A stretch of DNA of 35,893 nucleotides, taken from a virus. Position numbers and translations under genes: made by a program. Positions within the stretch are counted from its first letter, which is position 1, and every line of letters starts with the position of its first letter. The notes under the pieces are model-generated. The model saw only the letters and a list, made by a program, of their open reading frames with translations, was not told where the DNA came from and made no database searches. The stretch spans positions 1 to 35,893 of the IMG/VR virus record IMGVR_UViG_3300044691_000170; one strand, written 5' to 3'. Positions 3,596-16,379 of the stretch are shown one piece after another.

Positions 3596-4410
3596 GCTGG
3601 CACGCGGTGCAATACCGTGACAGTCACTTTCGGGTCAAACAGATCGGCGAGAAGTTCTTGGGGGACTTTTCAGGCAAGGCGCTGTCCCAAATCACCGCCG
3701 GCGACGTTGAGCGCTGGAAGTCAGCACGAATGACGAGGATCGGGGTCAATCGGCTGGGCAGGGAAGCGGTGATGAGTTCGGAGACCGCCGCCAAGGAACT
3801 GCGCACCTTGAAGGCGATCTTGAACAAGGCGGTCGAATGGGGCGAGATAGAGCGCTCCCCGGCCAAGTCGGTGAAGGCGCCGAAGAACCTACGCAGCGCC
3901 CCGATCCACTGGTATACGAAGGCCAATCTCGCCAAGCTCTATCGGGGATCCCAATACGCCGCGATGTGGCGGCTCCTGGCGAATACCGGCCTACGCCGCG
4001 GCGAGGCGCAGCAGCTGCGGTGGGTCGACGTCAAAAAGGACCATCTGCACATCCTCTCGACCGCGGACGAACGAACGAAGTCGGGCAAGTGGCGCCAGGT
4101 ACCGCTATCAGATTCCGCACTCGCGGCGCTCAAGGTGCTGAAACGCCAGACCGGCAAGCTCATCTATGTCCTGCCGCGCATGACCGCGCCCAGCCTGTCG
4201 AGGGCATTCAGAATCGACGTACGAGCCCGTGGGCTGGCGGGCAGTCTGCACAGCCTGAGACACACTTATGGCGCGCATCTCGTCATGGCGGGCGTCCCCT
4301 TGCGCACGCTGCAGGTACTGATGGGTCACGCGAGTTTCACGACCACCGAACGGTATGCGCATGTGGGCGGCGATCACCTGCAAGATCAGGCGCGCTTGGT
4401 CAATTTATAG
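3397..4410 (+). CDS. int: Tyrosine-family site-specific integrase
   Basis: 337 residues. The ATG at 3397 follows an AAAGG site; a longer open frame upstream (from 3295) runs through the HTH gene and is not used. N-terminal residues 5-45 form the arm-binding strand domain (SWYLNWSEAGVQHRLSLG), and residues 55-160 the core-binding helices. The catalytic set is complete: R200 in TGLRRGE, K228 in the TKSGKWRQVPL hairpin, H285-x-x-R288 in LHSLRHT, H311 in LMGHAS and the nucleophile Y320 in TTERYAHV. It cuts and rejoins attP with a host attB, here probably a tRNA gene. The stop codon overlaps the first TAGCACA arm repeat of attP, so gene and substrate are physically joined. Confidence 0.95.
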   Translation: MATVSPRGKSWYLNWSEAGVQHRLSLGRITAGEAETRRKAKEYELASGHKIFYASALFDDHLRRYLSWHAVQYRDSHFRVKQIGEKFLGDFSGKALSQITAGDVERWKSARMTRIGVNRLGREAVMSSETAAKELRTLKAILNKAVEWGEIERSPAKSVKAPKNLRSAPIHWYTKANLAKLYRGSQYAAMWRLLANTGLRRGEAQQLRWVDVKKDHLHILSTADERTKSGKWRQVPLSDSALAALKVLKRQTGKLIYVLPRMTAPSLSRAFRIDVRARGLAGSLHSLRHTYGAHLVMAGVPLRTLQVLMGHASFTTTERYAHVGGDHLQDQARLVNL

Positions 4411-4610
4411 CACAGGAAATAGCACACATGCCCGCTAACCCATTGTTCCACATGGAACATCGCCAGCCCTCTCAAGGCAAGTACACGAGTTCGAATCTCG
4501 TAGGGAGCGCCATCTAATCAATGGGTTACATGTACCGCGCGCACCACAGGTTTCCAAGAAATGCCATGTTGTGCTATGGATTTAGCACAGCAGCACAAAT
4601 CATGGAAACC
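4408..4610. other. attP: Phage attachment site attP with arm-type repeats
   Basis: The core holds a tRNA 3' half on the + strand: T stem ACGAG (4485-4489), loop TTCGAAT (4490-4496), CTCGT (4497-4501), acceptor strand AGGGAGC, discriminator G and CCA (4510-4512). Upstream, GCC-CTCTCAA-GGC (4466-4478) resembles a tRNA-Glu anticodon loop with anticodon CTC. Perfect TAGCACA heptamers lie at 4408-4414, 4420-4426 and 4583-4589, with an inverted copy at 4570-4576 and a one-mismatch copy at 4591-4597. GGTTTCCA (4549-4556) is mirrored at 4603-4610. Direct and inverted repeats on both sides of a tRNA-derived core are typical of tyrosine-integrase attP sites. The intact 3' end would restore the host tRNA after integration. 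Confidence 0.8.
4444..4459. promoter_or_regulatory. parS-like 16-bp palindrome
   Basis: TGTTCCACATGGAACA has 6-bp arms (TGTTCC/GGAACA). It differs by one central transition (CACATG for CACGTG) from the Pseudomonas form of the chromosomal parS site, TGTTCCACGTGGAACA, as I remember it. It lies between the int-side arm repeats and the tRNA core. It could bind ParB, integrase or an excisionase, or be chance; the changed central base would be expected to weaken ParB binding. Confidence 0.4.
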
Positions 4611-6569: not shown

Positions 6570-8480
6570 TTATCCCACATTCGCAATGGACGCTTGCCAA
6601 GAGAAGGCGTGCGTGCCGCCACCCGCGTAATTCACGGTGAAGGTGGTGGCACCGGGGGCGCCTGGAAATACCGCCGTCGGCGTTCCATCTTGTGCTTGGA
6701 GTAAAACGATCGTCGGCGTAACAGCGAGTCCGTGCGCGACCGTGGCACCCGTGGCGATTGCACCAGTAACGCCCTTATTGCTGGTCAAGAAACCCGGATT
6801 GTTGGTGACGGAATTCGGCACCAAGAACGCCGCCACCGTCGCCGGCCCTTGATTGTTAATCACCACCGCCCCAGGCGTGTTGAATACATTGGCAGTGACC
6901 AATACGCCGGCCGTATTCGGGTTCAAGTTGATGCCAACCGAATAGTTGTCGATCACGTTGCCCTGGATGACGCCCACCCCGGCCGTGAGGGTCGCGGCGG
7001 TTGTCGGGCTGCCAGTAATTGCAGGAAACCAACTCAAGTTGGCGTTGCCTAAGCCGGTAAAGAAGGCCCGAAGCGATTGACCTGTCGAGGTCACGATGCT
7101 AAACGCCTGCCCGGCGGCGTAGATCAACGGCGCGGCATAAGTTCCGGAAGTTGCACCGGTTGAAGGCGCAGGGCTAAATGTGAGCGCTACCGTGTTGATC
7201 GAAACCGCAGTAACGTTTGCGGCGGTAGAGAGGGACTGAAAATAGTTGTTGGCTATGGAGAAGTCGTATTGACCGGCGATCGTGATCGCAATATCGCCCG
7301 TAAATTGCGATATAAAATAATTGCCGACGATGTTGGTGCCGACGATGCCGGACAGTAAAGAGATGTCGAAATTGCATGCAAACTGCGAGCCTGTGACGGC
7401 CAGTTGCGCGTCGGACACCTGTCCGGCGCTTTGGACGATACCGTAATCGCAAAGTGTGAAATTTGTAGTGGCAACGCTTAAGCCTTGATAAAACCCAACT
7501 GCACCGCCGTAATTGATGCCCTGATGCAGGAACATGAAATTGCAGCGCGTAACGTTCGTCAGGATGCCAAGATTACTTGAGTTGATTCCCTGCACCACCA
7601 CGCCAGTGCCACTACAACCAGTGGCACCAGCGGCAAAAGTGCCTTTGCCGAAGAACGTGCAGTTATCAATGTTCAATGCGCTGGTGTCGTTTTGAACGAC
7701 GCCATTAGTCCAGTAGAAGGCGACGTTGTAGCCGTCGCTGCCACGAAAGACGCAATTCTCCACATCGCTTAAGCTGCTGGCCGAACCGAACGAATTGTAA
7801 TTAAAGGCAAGCGCCGTGCCGCCGTTCGCGACACTGGTCGTAAAGGCGATGTCTCGGATGTGGACGGTGTTGAGTTCCGTGTTCCACGTGAAAGCTAAAC
7901 CGCCAGATGCGGCGCTGCATCGAAACTCGGTCAAGTTCGCGCCTGCACCGATAATGGAAATATCGGTCAGCGCAGCAGGAAATGCAGTGACGATCTGCGC
8001 GGTGTAAAGATATATGCCGGGAGGCGCAATAACAGGGCCGCCGCCGGCCATCGCAAAGGCGATTGCCGCTGTGATTGCAGCGGTCATATTCGTGGTGCCG
8101 GGCGTCGTATTGGTGCCGTAGCGCAGGATGTTGCCGTAGGGATACCAAGCGTTGACGACCGTCGCGCCCTCGATACCCAGCACCGGATATAGAATCGCTC
8201 CAATGGAGGCTTGAGTAGGAACTGTGAAGTTCGCTACAGGGATCCCATTTAAAGTGGCCCAACGCTTGGTATTGCTCCCAAGGTTGTAGATAAAATCCGT
8301 GGCCGGCAGGAAATCGGCCGCCATCTTGCCCTGGCCGTCGCGCGTGACGCAGTTGGTCAGTCCGGCAGCAAAGCCATCGTCCTCGCTATCGACCCGGCTT
8401 GCCGTAATATTGATGCTATTGGCCGCATCCTGGGTCCATTTGAAGAGTCGATTGAATACACCAGAGCCGTCAAATGCCAT
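6570..8480 (-). CDS. Tailspike / tail fibre with beta-helix domain
   Basis: 636 residues from ATG 8480, preceded by GGAGA; the extra 13 codons of the open frame upstream lack support. The N-terminal 90 residues (FNRLFKWTQDAANSINITASR, then GKMAADFLPATDFIYNLGS) look like the virion-attachment domain of podoviral fibres. Residues about 120-480 carry pectate-lyase-like repeats: AAITAAIAFAMAGGGPVIAPPG followed by many N/C/F rungs (DVENCVFRGS, NIDNCTFFG, NVTRCNFMF). The C-terminal 100 residues are Gly/Thr/Val-rich beta. It probably binds and may cut a surface polysaccharide; catalytic residues cannot be assigned by eye. It sits between the ejection proteins and the endolysin, as tail genes do in related phages. 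Confidence 0.85.
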   Translation of the reverse strand: MAFDGSGVFNRLFKWTQDAANSINITASRVDSEDDGFAAGLTNCVTRDGQGKMAADFLPATDFIYNLGSNTKRWATLNGIPVANFTVPTQASIGAILYPVLGIEGATVVNAWYPYGNILRYGTNTTPGTTNMTAAITAAIAFAMAGGGPVIAPPGIYLYTAQIVTAFPAALTDISIIGAGANLTEFRCSAASGGLAFTWNTELNTVHIRDIAFTTSVANGGTALAFNYNSFGSASSLSDVENCVFRGSDGYNVAFYWTNGVVQNDTSALNIDNCTFFGKGTFAAGATGCSGTGVVVQGINSSNLGILTNVTRCNFMFLHQGINYGGAVGFYQGLSVATTNFTLCDYGIVQSAGQVSDAQLAVTGSQFACNFDISLLSGIVGTNIVGNYFISQFTGDIAITIAGQYDFSIANNYFQSLSTAANVTAVSINTVALTFSPAPSTGATSGTYAAPLIYAAGQAFSIVTSTGQSLRAFFTGLGNANLSWFPAITGSPTTAATLTAGVGVIQGNVIDNYSVGINLNPNTAGVLVTANVFNTPGAVVINNQGPATVAAFLVPNSVTNNPGFLTSNKGVTGAIATGATVAHGLAVTPTIVLLQAQDGTPTAVFPGAPGATTFTVNYAGGGTHAFSWQASIANVG

Positions 8481-8602: not shown

Positions 8603-10684
8603 TTAGCGGCTGGGCTGCAGAAGTTGGTTGATGCCGGTCGCCGCCGTTGGCGCAGCGCCCGAAGTCAGAAGCGCAGCCAGGCGCTTTTGAAGTTCCGGGG
8701 ATAGACCGCCCTTGGGTTTGCCGATGGATGCACCCAAGGCATCCGCCAATTTACCGGCGGCATCGCTGCGCGCGGCATGCTTCTCCAATGCACCCACCAC
8801 CGTGTCATTGATCAGGGGTAAGTTAGGCCCGATCAATCCCCGGCCACCTTTGACCAAACTCAGGAGCATCGGCGCCGTGTTGGAGTGATTCACCGCGCCA
8901 TAGGCAGGCTCATAGGTCGCATCGACGCCGGCGCGCGCCAAGCTATCTAATTGCGCATGAGCGTCATTGCCCAGCACCATTTTGAGCTTGCTGGGGCCGA
9001 TGGCATCCATGGCCTTGGTGAGCGCGGTACCGCTGAACTGGCCGTTCTGTTTGACGGCCGCATCCTGCAGGTGCTCCATCATGCCGCCGCGGAGCGCGTT
9101 CAGCGTCTCGCCGCTCTGCTTGTCCGGCATCTTGCCAATGGTCGCAAGCAACGTGCCGACGTCCTGTTCCGGCGCCGAAATGACGTGAGTCTTGATGAAA
9201 CCCTGCGCGGTGCGTCCCTGACCCAGTTCGCCGATGTTGTCCAAGAGCTTCTGCGTCGCTGGGTTGCCCAGCATATCGAAACGCGCCGATGCAGCGTTTC
9301 TGCCCGCCCCGAAAGCATTCTCTCCAGTGCCTGAGAGGACATCGCTATCGGTCGCCTTGATGAACATGGTCGCGATGCGATCGGTTTTCGGGTCCCCTGA
9401 CTTCAGCGTCTGCAGGAACTTCCGGAATTCCTCGGCTTGCGTCACCGTCATCGTCTGCGACGTGAGCTTTCCCTCATCATCGATCATGCCGAAGCGCTTC
9501 AAGCGTTTCGACACGCTGTTGATGATCGGTTCCGCATAGGCGTTGTCGGCTACATCGGGATCGTGCAGCGTCGAGACGACATTGCGTGCGTCGGAGGCGA
9601 GTTGATCACCTTTCGTCGCTTTGACCTGATCGTAAACCGCCTTCACGTCCTTCTGCGATGACTCCGCGAGGGCATCGATGTTTTGCATCGCGACCATGCC
9701 GCGCCCTTCCTGGGTGGCGGCCCCGTAGGGTTTGGCGAGCGCTCCCATCTTTGCGGTGAGCGCCTGATCGTTTCCCTGGTAGACCCGGGTCAGTTCCTGC
9801 CCGGTATTCGACAACGCTTCATCGGGGGACTGCGCGAGCTTCTGCAGATTCCGTTCGCGCGTCCACTGCGCGGGATCGCGCGTGACCATGGAAGTCGTCG
9901 GCGTCACATCATTGGCGAGTAGATTGGCCTTGCGGGCGACCGCCGCCGCATCCAGCTTGCCTGACTGCGCGATCTGCGCCTGCGCCTCTTTGATCAAATC
10001 ACCGCGCACGGCCGGCGGTGCGTTGGCGAGGTCGGGAACGTCCTGAAGCACGCGCCCGGCGGATTTATCAGCGACCAGACCCGATGCCCGGCCTTTGACC
10101 GTATTCAAGGCGCCCACCAGCTTATCGCTGATCGTGCCCGCGATTGGAGCCGCCACTGCGCCGGTGACCGTGCCGATACCTGCCGCCTTGGCGCGATCCA
10201 GCATGGAGCCGGTCGCCGTCGGCTGCGCGGCGGCATCAAGACCGCCCTGCACGGCGCCCAGGCCGGCGCGCGCGAGCAACCCCTCGCCTGCCCCTGGAAT
10301 CAGCATCAGGGGCGCGCCCATGCCCGCAGAGCCGCCCAAACTTGCCCAATCTATCCCCGCATCCTTGCCGCGACCCTTCTGATAGAGCGCTTCGTCCTCG
10401 TTCAATCCCTTGGTGTAGTTGTCAAGTTCCTGCTGCGCCTTGGTCTTGCCCGTGATCTGACTTTGCAAGTCAGGGCCGGCTAATTTTGCTTTGAGTTCAA
10501 GGAACGCCTGATGAATGCCGCCCACCGTGCGATCGGCGCCATGGCCGATGCGCTCGAGTACGTTCGGCGCTTCTTGCGCGATCGGTGCGGCCCCTTGAAG
10601 GGTAAATCCAGGCGGCAACGCTGCGCCGGGACCGCTCGCCGCGGCCGGCTGCACGATCGTAAACCCCGGCGGTAGATCGCTCAT
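8603..10684 (-). CDS. Large internal virion / DNA-ejection protein
   Basis: 693 residues; the ATG at 10684 overlaps the upstream stop (ATGA). The N-terminus has two copies of PPGFT (residues 5-9 and about 24-28). A hydrophobic Gly/Ala stretch at about 115-200 (GGSAGMGAPLMLIPGAGEGL, GLGAVQGGLDAAAQ, GTVTGAVAAPIAGTI) could insert in membranes. The remainder is long helix. It is the third of three consecutive Gln/Ala-rich virion genes placed like P22 genes 7, 20 and 16, whose products leave the head with DNA and span the envelope. The equivalence rests on order and composition, not on visible motif identity. Confidence 0.7.
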   Translation of the reverse strand: MSDLPPGFTIVQPAAASGPGAALPPGFTLQGAAPIAQEAPNVLERIGHGADRTVGGIHQAFLELKAKLAGPDLQSQITGKTKAQQELDNYTKGLNEDEALYQKGRGKDAGIDWASLGGSAGMGAPLMLIPGAGEGLLARAGLGAVQGGLDAAAQPTATGSMLDRAKAAGIGTVTGAVAAPIAGTISDKLVGALNTVKGRASGLVADKSAGRVLQDVPDLANAPPAVRGDLIKEAQAQIAQSGKLDAAAVARKANLLANDVTPTTSMVTRDPAQWTRERNLQKLAQSPDEALSNTGQELTRVYQGNDQALTAKMGALAKPYGAATQEGRGMVAMQNIDALAESSQKDVKAVYDQVKATKGDQLASDARNVVSTLHDPDVADNAYAEPIINSVSKRLKRFGMIDDEGKLTSQTMTVTQAEEFRKFLQTLKSGDPKTDRIATMFIKATDSDVLSGTGENAFGAGRNAASARFDMLGNPATQKLLDNIGELGQGRTAQGFIKTHVISAPEQDVGTLLATIGKMPDKQSGETLNALRGGMMEHLQDAAVKQNGQFSGTALTKAMDAIGPSKLKMVLGNDAHAQLDSLARAGVDATYEPAYGAVNHSNTAPMLLSLVKGGRGLIGPNLPLINDTVVGALEKHAARSDAAGKLADALGASIGKPKGGLSPELQKRLAALLTSGAAPTAATGINQLLQPSR

Positions 10685-12288
10685 TGCTGTCCGGGCGGCA
10701 TTTGCAGCGGCACCCATTGCCCGTTGTGGTAGACAATTTTCTTCTCGCCATTGGCCGCGATCTGGCCTTCCTTAAATTGCGGTGCCGGGCCCTGCGCGAT
10801 ATCACTCGCATTGCGGATGCCGGTTTGCTGCCGAGGAACGGAATTCAAGCCTCCGGCCGCGATCTTCTGCCGGGTCGCGAGATCATAGGCGGCGGGAAAG
10901 TCGATCGAATAACGCCCCGGGTCATTTTTCTGATTTGACGTGAACTGCTGCCACGCCTGCTGCTTATCGAGCGTCTGGTCGAAGCCCTTGCCCATGAAAT
11001 CCATGGCGCGCGAGATCCCCGTGGGGGTCATCATCCAGTTCGGGTTGTTCGCGAGATAGACCTTAAATTCCTGCTGCGTGACCTTGTTCGTCATCTGCTT
11101 GGCCGCTTCTGCGGCAAGGTTCGCGGTGCCCTTCTGGAAGGCCTGCGTATCGCCGACATTCATGCCGGTCAAACTCGTGACCTTCTCTTCAGGAACGCCC
11201 ATCGCCTGGGCGACAGAGCCGATCGCCTGAAGAACAGGGGCGCCAGCGCCGGGCGTGAAGCCTTGCAGCAAATTGCCCATCTCGGACAACGTGCGCTTGC
11301 CCTGTAGCGCGTTCTCGGCATCCGCATTGATCTGCGCGCCTAAAGCGGAGCCCGCCTTGCCCTGGTCGCCCTGGAAGGCTGCACCGGCGGTGGTCTGCCC
11401 GCCCCCACCATCGGTGCCCGTCGGAATTGCGCCTTGTTGGCGCAGCGCCGGCGGCGTCGTATAGGCAAAGGTGCTGCGACCTTGCGAGTCCTTCACTTCG
11501 TGCGGTGTCTGCGATTGAGTAGCGGCGGTGGTGGCCGCCGTCGTTTGCGCCATGTTCGCGCCCAGGCCGCCCACCGGCGCCGCTTGCACGTTGCCATTGG
11601 CATCGAGCCCCAATGTCGAGGAGCTGCCGGGGACAACCGCGCCCCTCAAGGAATCGGCCATCGCCATGGTGCGGCTCTGATTGGCCGAAATCCCGCGATA
11701 GGCGTCATTTTTCTGTGCATCGGTCCAGTCGTAGCGCTTGGCGACCGCCTCTAAATACTTGGGCACTCCCATCTGCACCGCCATCATGCGATCGCGCGTG
11801 GGGTCGCCGGTGAGGGAGGGAATGCCGCCGGGCTGCTGGGGCTGACCCTGCGGCGGCTGCGCTTGACCACTTTGCGGCGCAGATTGCGGCGGCAACGCGA
11901 TACCCGGCGCGCTTTGATTCGCGCCCGAGATTGCGGCGGTCAATTGCGCGACTTTCGGATCCACGGGAGGCTGTCCCGATTGCCCTCCAGCGGGCGGCTG
12001 TGTTCCTGGGAACATCGCATTGAATTGATCCGCCTGGCTTTTCGCCAATCCCCGCTCTCCGGTCAGCACATCCTGGTTTGCCTTACCCGCCATCAACGCT
12101 TGGGCCAAGGCCCCGACGTTTTGCAATGCACCGCGCTTCGGCACGACTCGCATCGAGTCCCAGCTCTGCGGCGTCTCATTCGACTGCTGAAATGCCCCCA
12201 TCAATTGCTGCGCAATCTGCTGCTTGCGCTGCAGATCCAAATAGTCTGGATACTGAGACGGATCAATGGGTGGTTGAACGAGCGCCAT
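10681..12288 (-). CDS. Internal virion / DNA-ejection protein, Gln-rich
   Basis: 535 residues; the ATG at 12288 follows a GGAAT site and the preceding stop by one base. The N-terminal 45 residues (SQYPDYLDLQRKQQIAQQLM) are helical. Residues about 90-180 are Pro/Gln/Gly low complexity. The C-terminal half contains a globular helical part (MGVPKYLEAVAKRYDWTDAQ, TQQEFKVYLANNPNWMM, AYDLATRQKIAAGGL). The position matches P22 gene 20. The role in DNA ejection is inferred from operon order. Confidence 0.7.
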   Translation of the reverse strand: MALVQPPIDPSQYPDYLDLQRKQQIAQQLMGAFQQSNETPQSWDSMRVVPKRGALQNVGALAQALMAGKANQDVLTGERGLAKSQADQFNAMFPGTQPPAGGQSGQPPVDPKVAQLTAAISGANQSAPGIALPPQSAPQSGQAQPPQGQPQQPGGIPSLTGDPTRDRMMAVQMGVPKYLEAVAKRYDWTDAQKNDAYRGISANQSRTMAMADSLRGAVVPGSSSTLGLDANGNVQAAPVGGLGANMAQTTAATTAATQSQTPHEVKDSQGRSTFAYTTPPALRQQGAIPTGTDGGGGQTTAGAAFQGDQGKAGSALGAQINADAENALQGKRTLSEMGNLLQGFTPGAGAPVLQAIGSVAQAMGVPEEKVTSLTGMNVGDTQAFQKGTANLAAEAAKQMTNKVTQQEFKVYLANNPNWMMTPTGISRAMDFMGKGFDQTLDKQQAWQQFTSNQKNDPGRYSIDFPAAYDLATRQKIAAGGLNSVPRQQTGIRNASDIAQGPAPQFKEGQIAANGEKKIVYHNGQWVPLQMPPGQQ

Positions 12289-12289
12289 A

Positions 12290-12619
12290 CTATGGAATTC
12301 CGGGCGTCGGCATCCCGTTGGGGATCTGTGGTTGCGGCAATGGCTGCATCTGCGACTGCTGAAGCGCCTGCATCTGGGGATCGGCCCCGATCTGAGCTTG
12401 CGTTCCCGGCAGCATCGCATTCGCCTGATGCTGTTGCTGTTGCCCCTGAAGCGCCTTCATCAGCATGACCTTTTGCACGAGTTGCGCGGCGGCCCCGCCG
12501 GCGCCGATTTGGCCTTGCATCTGCGGGCCCGCGGCCCCGCCGCCAAAGCTCGTATCCTGCGGGGACTGCTGCAGTCGCTGTGCCAACATCTGCTGCATCA
12601 TGCCGGGGTCCATGCTCAT
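12290..12619 (-). CDS. Small Gln/Met-rich virion protein
   Basis: 109 residues; the start at 12619 has GAGG eight bases upstream and lies two bases past the preceding stop. The composition is extreme: Gln, Met, Pro, Gly and Ala make up most of it (MMQQMLAQRLQQSPQ, then LQGQQQQHQANAMLPG). It precedes the two large ejection-type genes, in the place of the smallest P22 ejection protein (gp7). Low complexity prevents any family call. Confidence 0.6.
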   Translation of the reverse strand: MSMDPGMMQQMLAQRLQQSPQDTSFGGGAAGPQMQGQIGAGGAAAQLVQKVMLMKALQGQQQQHQANAMLPGTQAQIGADPQMQALQQSQMQPLPQPQIPNGMPTPGIP

Positions 12620-12621
12620 AA

Positions 12622-13158
12622 TCAGTGCCTCAAAAAGTGATGCGATGCCCATTCAATCATTGGGGTAACGCGGGTTTTGATCTCGTGCAGCGTCCACGCC
12701 TCATTCTCGGCGACGCGGATGCGAAGCCCTTCATCGAGTTTCTCAATCTGCGCCCGCAACTCCGCGCCGTGATAAGGATCATGGATCGCGTGGTGGCGCG
12801 TGCAAGTGAGGGTTCCGTGCTCCGCCTCAAGCGCATTGACCTCATCCAAACTCGGCGGTCTGCATTCGAGTGCGGCCATGTAGCCCAAGAGCATCGCCGG
12901 ATGTTCATGTTCGATGTAGTAATACTGAGCCCCGGCAAGCTGTGCGGCGGCCGGAAACTTGATGATATCGGTCACGCCGAGGCGCGCGAGATCCTCCTCA
13001 AGCATAGCCAAATGTCCGGCCTCCTCGGTCAGGTGATGCGAGAAATAACCAAGCAGGTCATCCCCCGCCCGACTGATCGCGGCGCGTAAGAGCCCCTCGG
13101 AGGCAGTCATGGTGCCGTGAATGAAGCACAGATTCGCGCGTAGGAATTGGGGGGTCAT
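12622..13158 (-). CDS. Heme-oxygenase-like diiron oxidase family protein
   Basis: 178 residues from ATG 13158 (a TTG three bases earlier is possible). It shows two matched metal-binding helices: H42-x3-E46-x2-H49 in HHLTEEAGHLAMLEEDL and H123-x3-D127-x2-H130 in RHHAIHDPYHGAEL. Between them is an acidic/His helix, YYYIEHEHPAMLLGYMAALE (from residue 79). The HxxxDxxH helix and overall all-helical length of about 180-230 fit the TenA/heme-oxygenase-like non-heme diiron group (CADD, UndA, BesC, SznF), whose members use O2 on small molecules or amino acids. It is embedded in the virion operon between a Gly-rich structural gene and the ejection genes. A purely structural role in the tail is the main alternative. 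Confidence 0.65.
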   Translation of the reverse strand: MTPQFLRANLCFIHGTMTASEGLLRAAISRAGDDLLGYFSHHLTEEAGHLAMLEEDLARLGVTDIIKFPAAAQLAGAQYYYIEHEHPAMLLGYMAALECRPPSLDEVNALEAEHGTLTCTRHHAIHDPYHGAELRAQIEKLDEGLRIRVAENEAWTLHEIKTRVTPMIEWASHHFLRH

Positions 13159-14144
13159 CAATAAAACATCATGGCGGCCATCGCTGCCGTCGTAACAGCG
13201 CCTTGCGTGTTCGCATTGTTGGTCGCGACATTCGCGTTATAGCCGGCAAGCGCTCCATTATATTGCTGACCGAATGCACCGGAGATATCCGGCGTCGCCG
13301 CATTGATTTGGCCACCACTGCCGTTGCCTTGCAATTGCTGATATTCCGAGATTGGGGCATTACGCACCGCCAATTGATTTTGTAACCCTTGGCTCCCTAG
13401 CCCAAATAACCGCGACTGCTCTGCCCCGCCGCCGGTGATCGCTGAATTGATCGTTTGATTATTGGTGAAGGTGTTCTGCCGGTTTTGCTGATCCATTGCC
13501 TGCTGGTATGCGGCAGACCCCGGCGTGATTCCCTGATTCGCCAATTTCGAATCGAGCTGTTCGGCCGCCAAGTCCTGCTGTGGCTTGATGTACGCCTGTT
13601 GCTGGTCATAGAGGCTGTGCTGCGTGTTGTAGAGATCCTGCGTCGTCGAGGGTCCGCCCGGCATGCCCGCAAGGCCGGTCGTATCGATCGGCTTGGACAG
13701 CATGTCATTCGCCCATGGCGTGAGCGAGGTCTGCTGCGAGTAGATCGGTGCGCCGGAGCCGCCATTCGAACCAGGGCTTACTGTGGCCCCGGGACCCCCG
13801 CCTCCAGCGCCCATTCTCCCGCCAAAACCATACATGCCACCGCCCAGGGAGGACGGAATTGGGTAGCCACCCGAATTTCCGCCCGGCGATCCATCGCGTC
13901 CCGTGACCGACCAGGTATTCGAGCCCAGGGGGTTCGAACTGTTCGTTCGATTGAGCGCGGCGTTGTAATTCGCGGTGCCGGTCGCTAGACCGTACTGCGC
14001 ATTGGCCTGCGTATAGGGATCGACCGGCGCGGGCGCGGAGCCAGAGGATTTGCAGTCACTGACCGGACCAGAATACTCGAACGACTCCTCCTCGATGACT
14101 TCGCAGGTCTCCCAGTCAATTACTGCGCGAGTAATGATCTTCAT
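13158..14144 (-). CDS. Gly/Gln/Asn-rich tail or neck structural protein
   Basis: 328 residues; the ATG at 14144 gives an ATGA overlap with the GNAT gene (another ATG at 14156 overlaps further). It begins with a short ordered strand-rich part (MKIITRAVIDWETCEVIEEE), followed by PAPVDPYTQANAQYG and ALNRTNSSNPLGSNTW. A long Gly-rich stretch covers about residues 90-140, and the rest is Gln/Asn-rich helix (YDQQQAYIKPQQDLAAEQL). The motif NPLGSNTW with VDPY..A.AQYG recurs in podoviral tail-region proteins near the hub and ejection genes. The exact position in the virion is unknown. Confidence 0.7.
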   Translation of the reverse strand: MKIITRAVIDWETCEVIEEESFEYSGPVSDCKSSGSAPAPVDPYTQANAQYGLATGTANYNAALNRTNSSNPLGSNTWSVTGRDGSPGGNSGGYPIPSSLGGGMYGFGGRMGAGGGGPGATVSPGSNGGSGAPIYSQQTSLTPWANDMLSKPIDTTGLAGMPGGPSTTQDLYNTQHSLYDQQQAYIKPQQDLAAEQLDSKLANQGITPGSAAYQQAMDQQNRQNTFTNNQTINSAITGGGAEQSRLFGLGSQGLQNQLAVRNAPISEYQQLQGNGSGGQINAATPDISGAFGQQYNGALAGYNANVATNNANTQGAVTTAAMAAMMFY

Positions 14145-14539
14145 AAAAATCGGCACTCGGATTTCAGCATGCCCATAAGAATTACATCCTCGCCGTTGAT
14201 CGCGGACTCACGCAGTCGGCCTTCCTGAATAAAGCCCATGTTCGAACACAACTTGATCGACTTCGCATTGCTTTCCTCGATCGCGCAGCTCAAATGCCGC
14301 ACATTCCATACGACGAACGGGTTATAGAAAATGGCGTAGAGAAACCGCCGGTTGATCGGCGCATCTAAGGCAATCGAAGCAAACACATTCGCCGGTGTAT
14401 AATTCGTGTACACCACGCCGCCTTTGATCACCCCCTCGACTTCGTAACCGATCGCTTTCGGGTCCGATCCCCAGCCCGAGAAATGCTCGATGCGCGCCTC
14501 GCACCAATCTGCGACCCGTTGGTGTTCGGTGAAAATCAG
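14141..14539 (-). CDS. GNAT-family N-acetyltransferase, probable CTG start
   Basis: 132 residues. The domain starts at LIFTEHQRVADWCEARI, then GYEVEGVIKGGVVYTNYTP, the strand FLYAIFYNPFVVWNVRHLSC and, near residue 95-125, a GNAT tail AIEESNAKSIKLCSNMGFIQEGRLRES (N-A-x-S-x-x-L...GF..EG.LR). This is a standard small GNAT fold using acetyl-CoA. No ATG, GTG or TTG lies near the domain start. The only upstream ATG (14641) would force a 100-base overlap and a Ser/Arg-rich tail. A CTG at 14539, one base beyond the hub stop, fits exactly. Similar GNATs occur in virion operons of related podoviruses; the substrate is unknown. Confidence 0.75.
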   Translation of the reverse strand: MIFTEHQRVADWCEARIEHFSGWGSDPKAIGYEVEGVIKGGVVYTNYTPANVFASIALDAPINRRFLYAIFYNPFVVWNVRHLSCAIEESNAKSIKLCSNMGFIQEGRLRESAINGEDVILMGMLKSECRFL

Positions 14540-14540
14540 C

Positions 14541-16379
14541 CTAGAGCGGGCCGCCGGGCTCGAACATGTAGTCGATCGACTGCCACTGAACGGCAATATT
14601 GTTGACTTGGAACGCGATGCGTCCGCTTGCTGCGTAGCCAATGCCGGTGACTCCTAGCCAGTTCTTAATCTGCTGATTGACGATGGTTCCGCCCCAAGGG
14701 GTCACATTCCACGGACTCGTGTTCCAGGGCGCTGTCAATCCGCTATTGAAATAAGGCGCCGGATTGGTCACATCCTCGAAATCGACATTGAGCGTGATGG
14801 GTGGAATGGTTAAGGGCGCACTCGAGCGAAAGATCGGCCGCGCCATCAAAAACCGTTTCTCGGTCATCGATTCGAAGTAAGAGAACGCGGGCTTGCCATC
14901 CACCGCAATCGCCGCGCCGGAATCACTCAGGCCCACATCGGCCAAGTAGAGCGTTCCCAACCCGCCGAAATAGAGCGAGTCCTGCTGCACTTCCCAGCAA
15001 TTTGCATTCCAATTGACGAACCGGCACCAGGCGTTCGAGGTCGAGACCGTATTCATCACCCACTGATGGGCGGTTTGATCGGTGACTTCCGGCACATTCA
15101 GGATGAGCTTGTTGCCCAACGGGTGCTCAATGCACTGCCAGCCGAAGTTATTTCCGTAGGCCGTCGCATCGCTGCTGATCGCATTGATGATCTTGTTGGT
15201 CAAGAGCGCGTCGGGCTGCGAGCGATCGGTCAGGAGTGCTTTGCTCAACGGCGCGAGACCATCGGTGCAGATCACGAGCACATCGGAGCCGTATTTGACG
15301 ATGCAGCGACGTCCCAAGGGGCGGCCGATCCGGAAAACCCCGACCAGTGACCAGGTCGCCACCGCGCTCGGATCGTACCCCTGATAGATCGCGACCTCCC
15401 CCTCACTCGTGATGAAGGCGGCGTAATCGTTGATCCCTGACACGTTGTCGATGGTCCACGTCGCCATCTGCATCAGGAATCCGCCCATCTTGAATATCTG
15501 CCCCAGGGGCAGCATCGTGAGCGCGCCTTGGAATGCGCTGATCCCGGTGTACCAGGCATTCATCGAATTGTTTTCGATGAACCACAAGCGCTGCTTGAAC
15601 ACCGTGACGGTGATCAAATTCGCGATCACCAAGGCAAGCGCGGTAAACGAATTGGTGCCCGATAAGGTCGTGGTAGACCACCCGCCCACCGTCTGCACCG
15701 TGATCGAAAATCCAGAGCCGCTACCGCCAATACTCGCGGCCGTCGCCGAGAGCACGTTGCCGACGACGTAGCCGGTCCCAGGCGTGGTGATCGTGACGGA
15801 CGTGACGGATGCACCCGCGATGACAATCGTCGCCTGTGCGCCGGTCCCAGCGCCGCCGGTCAAGGGGACGTTGGTATACGTTCCATTGGTGTAGAGCGTT
15901 CCCCCGACCAAGGTCGTCAGGATCTGCACCCCGCCCTGCGTCGCGCCGTCATAGCGCAAAGGCGAATCCGCGCCATCGACCATCATCAGCACATTGCCGC
16001 CGCCGGCATTAAACATGGCGTGCTGCCAACGGCTACTCGCGAGAGCCGAGACAACCGCTGCTCCTACGGCACCCTGGGCGGTCGTATCAAAAATCTTGCC
16101 GCCGGCGACCGAGAAGAGTTTGCGGGTGACGGTCCCGTTATAGGCCGCCGCGGTTTCGACCGCCGAGACCATGCCGGTGGCCCAGGTCTGTGACCCATTG
16201 CGGACGGCCACATAGGAGGGCGTCGGGAACCAGTTGTCCAACGCGATCGCATCGGTGGCCGGCATGCTTGCCAGCGCATCGCGCGCATTCACCCCGCCCG
16301 TGGGGGCCATGACGGATTTGATGACGGCCGTCTGCTGGCGACTCTGCGGCGAGGCGCGGCGGGCGATACCGATCGCCAT
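14541..16379 (-). CDS. Tail hub / DNA-stabilisation protein (P22 gp10-like)
   Basis: 612 residues; the ATG immediately follows the stop of the adaptor gene. The N-terminus has APTGGVNARDALASMPATDA and LDNWFPTPSYVAVRNG, then AYNGTVTRKLFSVAGGKIFD, a pattern of beta-propeller blades seen in short-tail hub proteins. Around residues 180-235 lies a Gly/Thr repeat unit (GAGTGAQATIVIAG, then GTGYVVGNVLSATA) that is common in phage tail proteins. The order after the coat and adaptor genes is that of P22 gene 4 then gene 10, whose products close the portal after packaging. The call rests on position plus propeller-like repeats. Confidence 0.7.
   Translation of the reverse strand: MAIGIARRASPQSRQQTAVIKSVMAPTGGVNARDALASMPATDAIALDNWFPTPSYVAVRNGSQTWATGMVSAVETAAAYNGTVTRKLFSVAGGKIFDTTAQGAVGAAVVSALASSRWQHAMFNAGGGNVLMMVDGADSPLRYDGATQGGVQILTTLVGGTLYTNGTYTNVPLTGGAGTGAQATIVIAGASVTSVTITTPGTGYVVGNVLSATAASIGGSGSGFSITVQTVGGWSTTTLSGTNSFTALALVIANLITVTVFKQRLWFIENNSMNAWYTGISAFQGALTMLPLGQIFKMGGFLMQMATWTIDNVSGINDYAAFITSEGEVAIYQGYDPSAVATWSLVGVFRIGRPLGRRCIVKYGSDVLVICTDGLAPLSKALLTDRSQPDALLTNKIINAISSDATAYGNNFGWQCIEHPLGNKLILNVPEVTDQTAHQWVMNTVSTSNAWCRFVNWNANCWEVQQDSLYFGGLGTLYLADVGLSDSGAAIAVDGKPAFSYFESMTEKRFLMARPIFRSSAPLTIPPITLNVDFEDVTNPAPYFNSGLTAPWNTSPWNVTPWGGTIVNQQIKNWLGVTGIGYAASGRIAFQVNNIAVQWQSIDYMFEPGGPL

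Follow-up and report, generated by a model that had tools for sequence, protein, structure and literature searches.

Heme-oxygenase-like diiron oxidases (HDOs) are a young superfamily that, to our knowledge, has been met only in the natural-product and cofactor chemistry of bacteria so far. Phage-borne redox enzymes of the same overall fold class exist in cyanophages, which carry true heme oxygenases (ho1); these use heme as substrate and cofactor, whereas the protein described here has the ligand set of a non-heme diiron protein. In the open-access literature we found no report of a phage-borne HDO. The described members of the family (Pfam PF14518: UndA, BesC, SznF, AetD, HrmI and CADD) have a seven-helix-type heme-oxygenase (HO) fold, and their ligands follow the general motif E-H-E-H-(D/E)-H (PMC11363339). 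In AetD the ligands are D76-x2-H79, E140 and H172-x3-E176-x2-H179, and an interrupted core alpha1 has been described for several HDOs (PMC11611611). The relay and donor residues of CADD are Y141, Y170 and K152 (PMC13108848).

Here we describe an HDO-like gene in the 35,893-base IMG/VR virus record IMGVR_UViG_3300044691_000170, the whole of which is referred to as the window. The virus is a tailed phage with a major capsid protein of the podovirus type. The predicted protein resembles the known HDOs in its fold, in its 3H/3C ligands with the order E-H-E-H-D-H and in the interruption of alpha1 between its two ligands; with AetD it shares the ExxH spacing on alpha1 and HxxxDxxH on alpha3. In contrast to the known HDOs, it is shorter, virus-encoded and placed in a clade of its own, and no biosynthetic partner gene adjoins it. 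The coordinates of all features are collected in Table 1.

Table 1. Location of the HDO genes, their neighbours and the related loci discussed in the text
Feature	Location	Strand	Remarks
HDO-like gene	window 12622..13158	(-)	178 aa; ATG 13158, stop 12624-12622; predicted ligands E46/H49/E98/H123/D127/H130
Virion structural protein (PHROG 6121)	window 13158..14156	(-)	upstream; position-equivalent of Mx8 p54; stop overlaps HDO start
GNAT-type acyl-CoA N-acyltransferase (PHROG 4470)	window 14141..14641	(-)	one gene further upstream
Tail tube/nozzle-type protein (PHROG 5107, labelled 'amidase')	window 14541..16379	(-)	anchor of the slot survey
Small Met/Gln-rich protein g12290	window 12290..12619	(-)	likely start ATG 12619; other edge of the cargo slot
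Large late gene	window 10681..12420	(-)	579 aa; kept behind the slot in near relatives
PAPS-reductase-like gene	L050:9745-10449		234 aa; after PHROG 6121 homologue, in HDO slot; Pfam PAPS_reduct 6e-14, PHROG 424 'moron'
HDO of viral clade	L189:5914-6540		208 aa; between two small membrane-protein genes and P3 capsid gene
PRD1-like P3 capsid gene	L189:6562-7749		directly after HDO; Pfam 3.4e-51; PDB 3.5e-84
Radical SAM genes	L034:6481-7869, L035:5152-6216, L044:6019-7476, L045:6542-7846		overlap HDO gene in L034 and L035
Small precursor-like peptide	L037 about 4278-4442; L040 about 4250-4384		MDxVMSLNxLP... leader, variable tail

Fold, family and predicted metal-ligand residues

The open reading frame of the first-pass annotation was borne out and lies on the minus strand, which had not been given there. 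The coupling by overlap that it had claimed was found as a one-base overlap between the ATG and the stop codon of the upstream virion gene (TGATG), and the ATG of the following gene lies 2 bases past the HDO stop. The gene is under purifying selection, with dN/dS values of 0.06-0.13 in five of six close sequence pairs and 0.19 in the sixth.

An AlphaFold2 model based on a seven-sequence alignment consists of helices only (pLDDT 94.7, pTM 0.88). When this model was compared with the PDB using Foldseek, HO-like proteins took the top ranks (3dde, TenA homologues, CtCADD, HrmI, AetD and UndA). The best match was 3dde (TMq 0.76, E 6e-4, probability 1.00), the uncharacterised HO-fold protein Sden_3740 of Shewanella denitrificans, which differs from the phage protein in being bacterial and 239 aa long; HrmI (TMq 0.77, probability 1.00) and the Fe/Mn protein CtCADD (TMq 0.79, rmsd 2.7, probability 1.00, E modest at 2e-2) matched as well. 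A profile made from 37 relatives had 3dde as its sole significant match in the PDB, at E 2.9e-8 and with the ligand columns aligned. No family of PHROGs or NCBIfam matches the window protein, and the only family it touches is Pfam PF14518, at 16.8 bits and thus under the cut-off of 28.9, which is passed by the phage relatives L012 (33.8) and L178 (32.2) and by all six bacterial relatives scanned. Among the viral proteins of BFVD, a fold search showed none that was HO-like and matched at E<=0.001; the best matches had weak E values and were a phage protein resembling rubrerythrin and a protein of a giant virus. DARPin matches to the ExxH region, obtained with single-sequence phmmer against the PDB, were rejected as a composition artefact.

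The first-pass annotation had also pointed to a pair of motifs, HxxxExxH and HxxxDxxH, and both are present where it had placed them (H42-LTE-E46-AG-H49 and H123-AIH-D127-PY-H130). The first, however, is in fact an ExxH ligand pair (E46, H49), because H42 is no fixed part of it and is a histidine in only 44 of 52 distinct viral proteins. E46, H49, E98, H123, D127 and H130 do not vary in any of the 52 viral proteins or of the 12 nearest bacterial ones, so the pattern exceeds chance; the HDO loci were retrieved with patterns made of short conserved peptides around QYY and GYMAALE, which makes the conservation near residues 72-98 partly a selection effect and leaves the five ligands other than E98 outside the retrieval patterns. 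E98, the sixth of these residues, had not been named precisely in that annotation. In the model the predicted ligands fall on helices 33-46/49-59 (core alpha1, broken between E46 and H49), 89-98 (alpha2) and 118-139 (alpha3), and their conservation suggests that the six side chains converge. Position 21, which from sequence alone would be the candidate for the auxiliary-alpha2 glutamate of the 3H/4C type (SznF, RohS), is E in 36 of 52 viral proteins and otherwise A, V, G, P or D.

Taken together, the fold, the profile match to 3dde and the invariance of the six ligands support the proposed HO-like non-heme diiron-type protein; an HO-like fold was found on comparison with CADD and UndA, and no loss of the His/Glu/Asp ligands was seen among the phage homologues. 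The identity of the protein as an HDO is thus well supported. The ExxH helix also gave weak profile matches to ferritins and bacterioferritins (E 0.07-0.3), which could speak for a ferritin-like or rubrerythrin-type diiron or iron-storage protein; we regard such a protein as hardly credible, since over its full length the fold matches HO-like proteins and not the four-helix ferritin bundle, and the ligand order E-H / E / HxxxDxxH is that of an HDO. The TM-score of CtCADD is the highest among the matches listed, as might be expected of a CADD/PabS-like self-sacrificing p-aminobenzoate synthase feeding folate to phage DNA synthesis. However, with the CADD ligand numbering that we assume, the spacings of Y141, Y170 and K152 fall on positions 97 (L/M), 119 (mostly T/C) and 108 (E/D/N, with K in 1 of 52), and, by the same assumed numbering, E46 lies too near the start of the chain for a counterpart of Tyr27, a further donor residue of CADD/NePabS, at the same distance. 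We therefore consider such a synthase highly improbable.

The gene slot in related phages

In the window, the genes for the major capsid protein, the adaptor, the tail tube B-type protein, the GNAT protein and the PHROG 6121 virion protein precede the HDO gene in this order; the small Met/Gln-rich protein and then large late proteins follow, and the 579-aa product is probably a virion or internal protein. The HDO gene occurs on 56 further IMG/VR contigs, and all but one of the viral carriers are tailed phages. The window protein together with two relatives served as TBLASTN queries against 50,697 named phages and gave no real match, and no HDO was found at the slot in Mx8 and other named phages with a similar gene order. 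Its place in the tailed phages is nearly always the same, with a virion-protein gene in front of it. The tail tube B gene was upstream in 69 of the 72 HDO loci read (some contigs were fetched twice), and in most relatives the distance from this gene to the HDO end is 1.7-2.6 kb. On L159 the HDO gene directly follows the tail tube B gene; L146 ends early, yet a GNAT gene and a PHROG 6121 homologue are present beside its HDO; the gene order of L178, a phage beyond the reach of BLAST because of its divergence, is apparently the same. When the slot was surveyed through the tail protein, none of the best 50 matches by rank had an HDO; a count over the top ranks gives no frequency, and the known carriers are absent from among them.

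The content of the slot changes between close relatives. L050, a near-twin phage that shares 99% identity with the window in its capsid protein, has a PAPS-reductase-like gene joined at the same junctions, including the same downstream gene. PAPS-reductase-type phage AMGs of PHROG 424 thus share the slot with the HDO and belong to another enzyme class (sulfur/nucleotide chemistry). A PAPS-reductase gene stands at the HDO slot in five further relatives (L069, L074, L077, L091 and L105). In L054, with a capsid protein 86% identical, the slot is empty and nothing lies between the flanking genes. From this exchange and the empty slot we conclude that the site accepts alternative cargo. As in a moron or AMG, the HDO gene is absent or replaced at the same site in close relatives.

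The first-pass annotation had left three readings side by side, a virion-carried enzyme, a metabolic gene acting in the host and a fold re-used as a structural part. We consider it likely that a virus-specific HDO clade is carried as late-expressed metabolic cargo (moron/AMG) and is not a component of the particle. This argument draws on the presence, absence and exchange of the gene among relatives: an enzyme cargo is suggested rather than a particle part, because some close relatives hold another metabolic gene or nothing at the site. The protein might instead be packaged with the internal or ejection proteins, injected and act on the host during entry or as infection starts. A packaged enzyme would agree with the virion genes that flank the HDO in nearly all relatives among the tailed phages, with the translational coupling to a virion gene and, in a tectivirus described below, with the place directly before the major capsid gene; a position in the late operon is equally expected of it. 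On the other hand, the same slot alternatively holds a PAPS-reductase-like protein, a class filed by PHROGs as moron/AMG, and late operons often host morons. A virion-carried enzyme thus appears unlikely to us; the metabolic gene acting in the host is favoured over it, the two not being separable here.

Some observations concern the neighbouring genes themselves. The GNAT gene is a fixed member of the tail module throughout this group of phages, even in those that have no HDO. Between the tail gene and the GNAT gene of L050, an ORF (7873-8343) looks HNH-endonuclease-like by eye (CxxC and HxxxxxxC-type residues). Residues about 146-232 of the tail tube B protein match tail-fibre/baseplate families, and in L001 and L009 a second copy-like match falls within the region of the adaptor gene, which suggests that the segment is a mobile repeat domain.

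A tectivirus carrier and the origin of the viral clade

The one carrier that is not a tailed phage, L189, is a tectivirus, whose HDO nests among the tailed-phage HDOs in the tree. No HDO was seen on 11 related tectivirus contigs; where the contig extends far enough upstream, the order is packaging ATPase, small ORFs, capsid gene. A chimeric assembly seems unlikely because two junctions within 700 bases would be needed, and the single contig counts as one observation. One could suppose a virus-specific O2-activating diiron lineage, packaged in or coupled to virions and exchanged between the unrelated lineages of HK97-type tailed phages and PRD1-like tectiviruses, with an oxidation that would benefit both; we think this rather improbable.

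The tectivirus also bears on whether the HO-like bundle is a degenerate or re-used fold, serving as a structural or binding protein that lacks metal chemistry. The small size of the protein and its virion-gene neighbours would suit such a role, which we nevertheless regard as very unlikely: the six ligands are kept in the bacterial proteins as well as in viral sequences whose identity to the window falls to about 35%, the gene is lost or replaced in near-identical phages, and it occurs in an unrelated virion type. The structural part offered by the first-pass annotation is therefore disfavoured.

With respect to the nearest bacterial proteins, the viral HDOs form one clade with support of 100/98 in a careful tree; in a larger quick tree, its support was 98 with L189 inside. 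Bacterial HDO relatives were found in Actinomycetota, Acidobacteriota and Pseudomonadota. The nearest cellular ones (L034-L045, about 30-40% identity) come from Streptomyces, Streptosporangiaceae, Acidobacteriaceae and a Caulobacteraceae MAG. They share with the phage proteins the ligands as well as D56, G76, Y79, Y80, H84 and G92, and differ in being chromosomal and in forming a separate clade (98-100% support). The chromosomal alphaproteobacterial relatives are more distant (row L208 in their tree is a fragment artefact). To look for hosts, we searched with the major capsid protein. Of 289 Alphaproteobacteria, 8 contained prophage relatives, with identities reaching 58%, and the 299 Terriglobia gave a single weak match; no HDO was found in those of these prophages whose slot region was readable.

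In 4 of the 12 bacterial relatives (L034, L035, L044 and L045), a radical SAM gene adjoins the HDO gene, and the two may form a radical SAM-HDO pair. In L037 and L040 (Streptosporangiaceae), a small conserved peptide that looks like a RiPP precursor is encoded upstream of genes for an MFS transporter, an S9 peptidase and the HDO. TBLASTN of these GC-rich actinobacterial loci gave many frame-shadow hits, and we took from it nothing but the radical SAM motif and the small peptide. The bacterial neighbourhoods hint at peptide or amino-acid chemistry. In contrast, no partner of the radical SAM or precursor-peptide type adjoins the phage HDO gene.

Possible role in the infected cell

If the gene is metabolic cargo, its product would be translated late through the coupling to the upstream virion gene, bind two irons (or Fe/Mn) and activate O2 at this cluster, and a small substrate would be oxidised in the infected cell. 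We infer the enzymatic activity itself. An amino acid, a fatty acid or a peptide side chain would be the most likely substrate, since known HDOs act on these.

Overall, our data describe a virus-only HDO clade with a fixed cargo slot, in which the gene is exchangeable with a PAPS-reductase-like gene. The protein is a compact, naturally minimal HDO available for study, and it makes testable which oxidation the phage needs late in infection.
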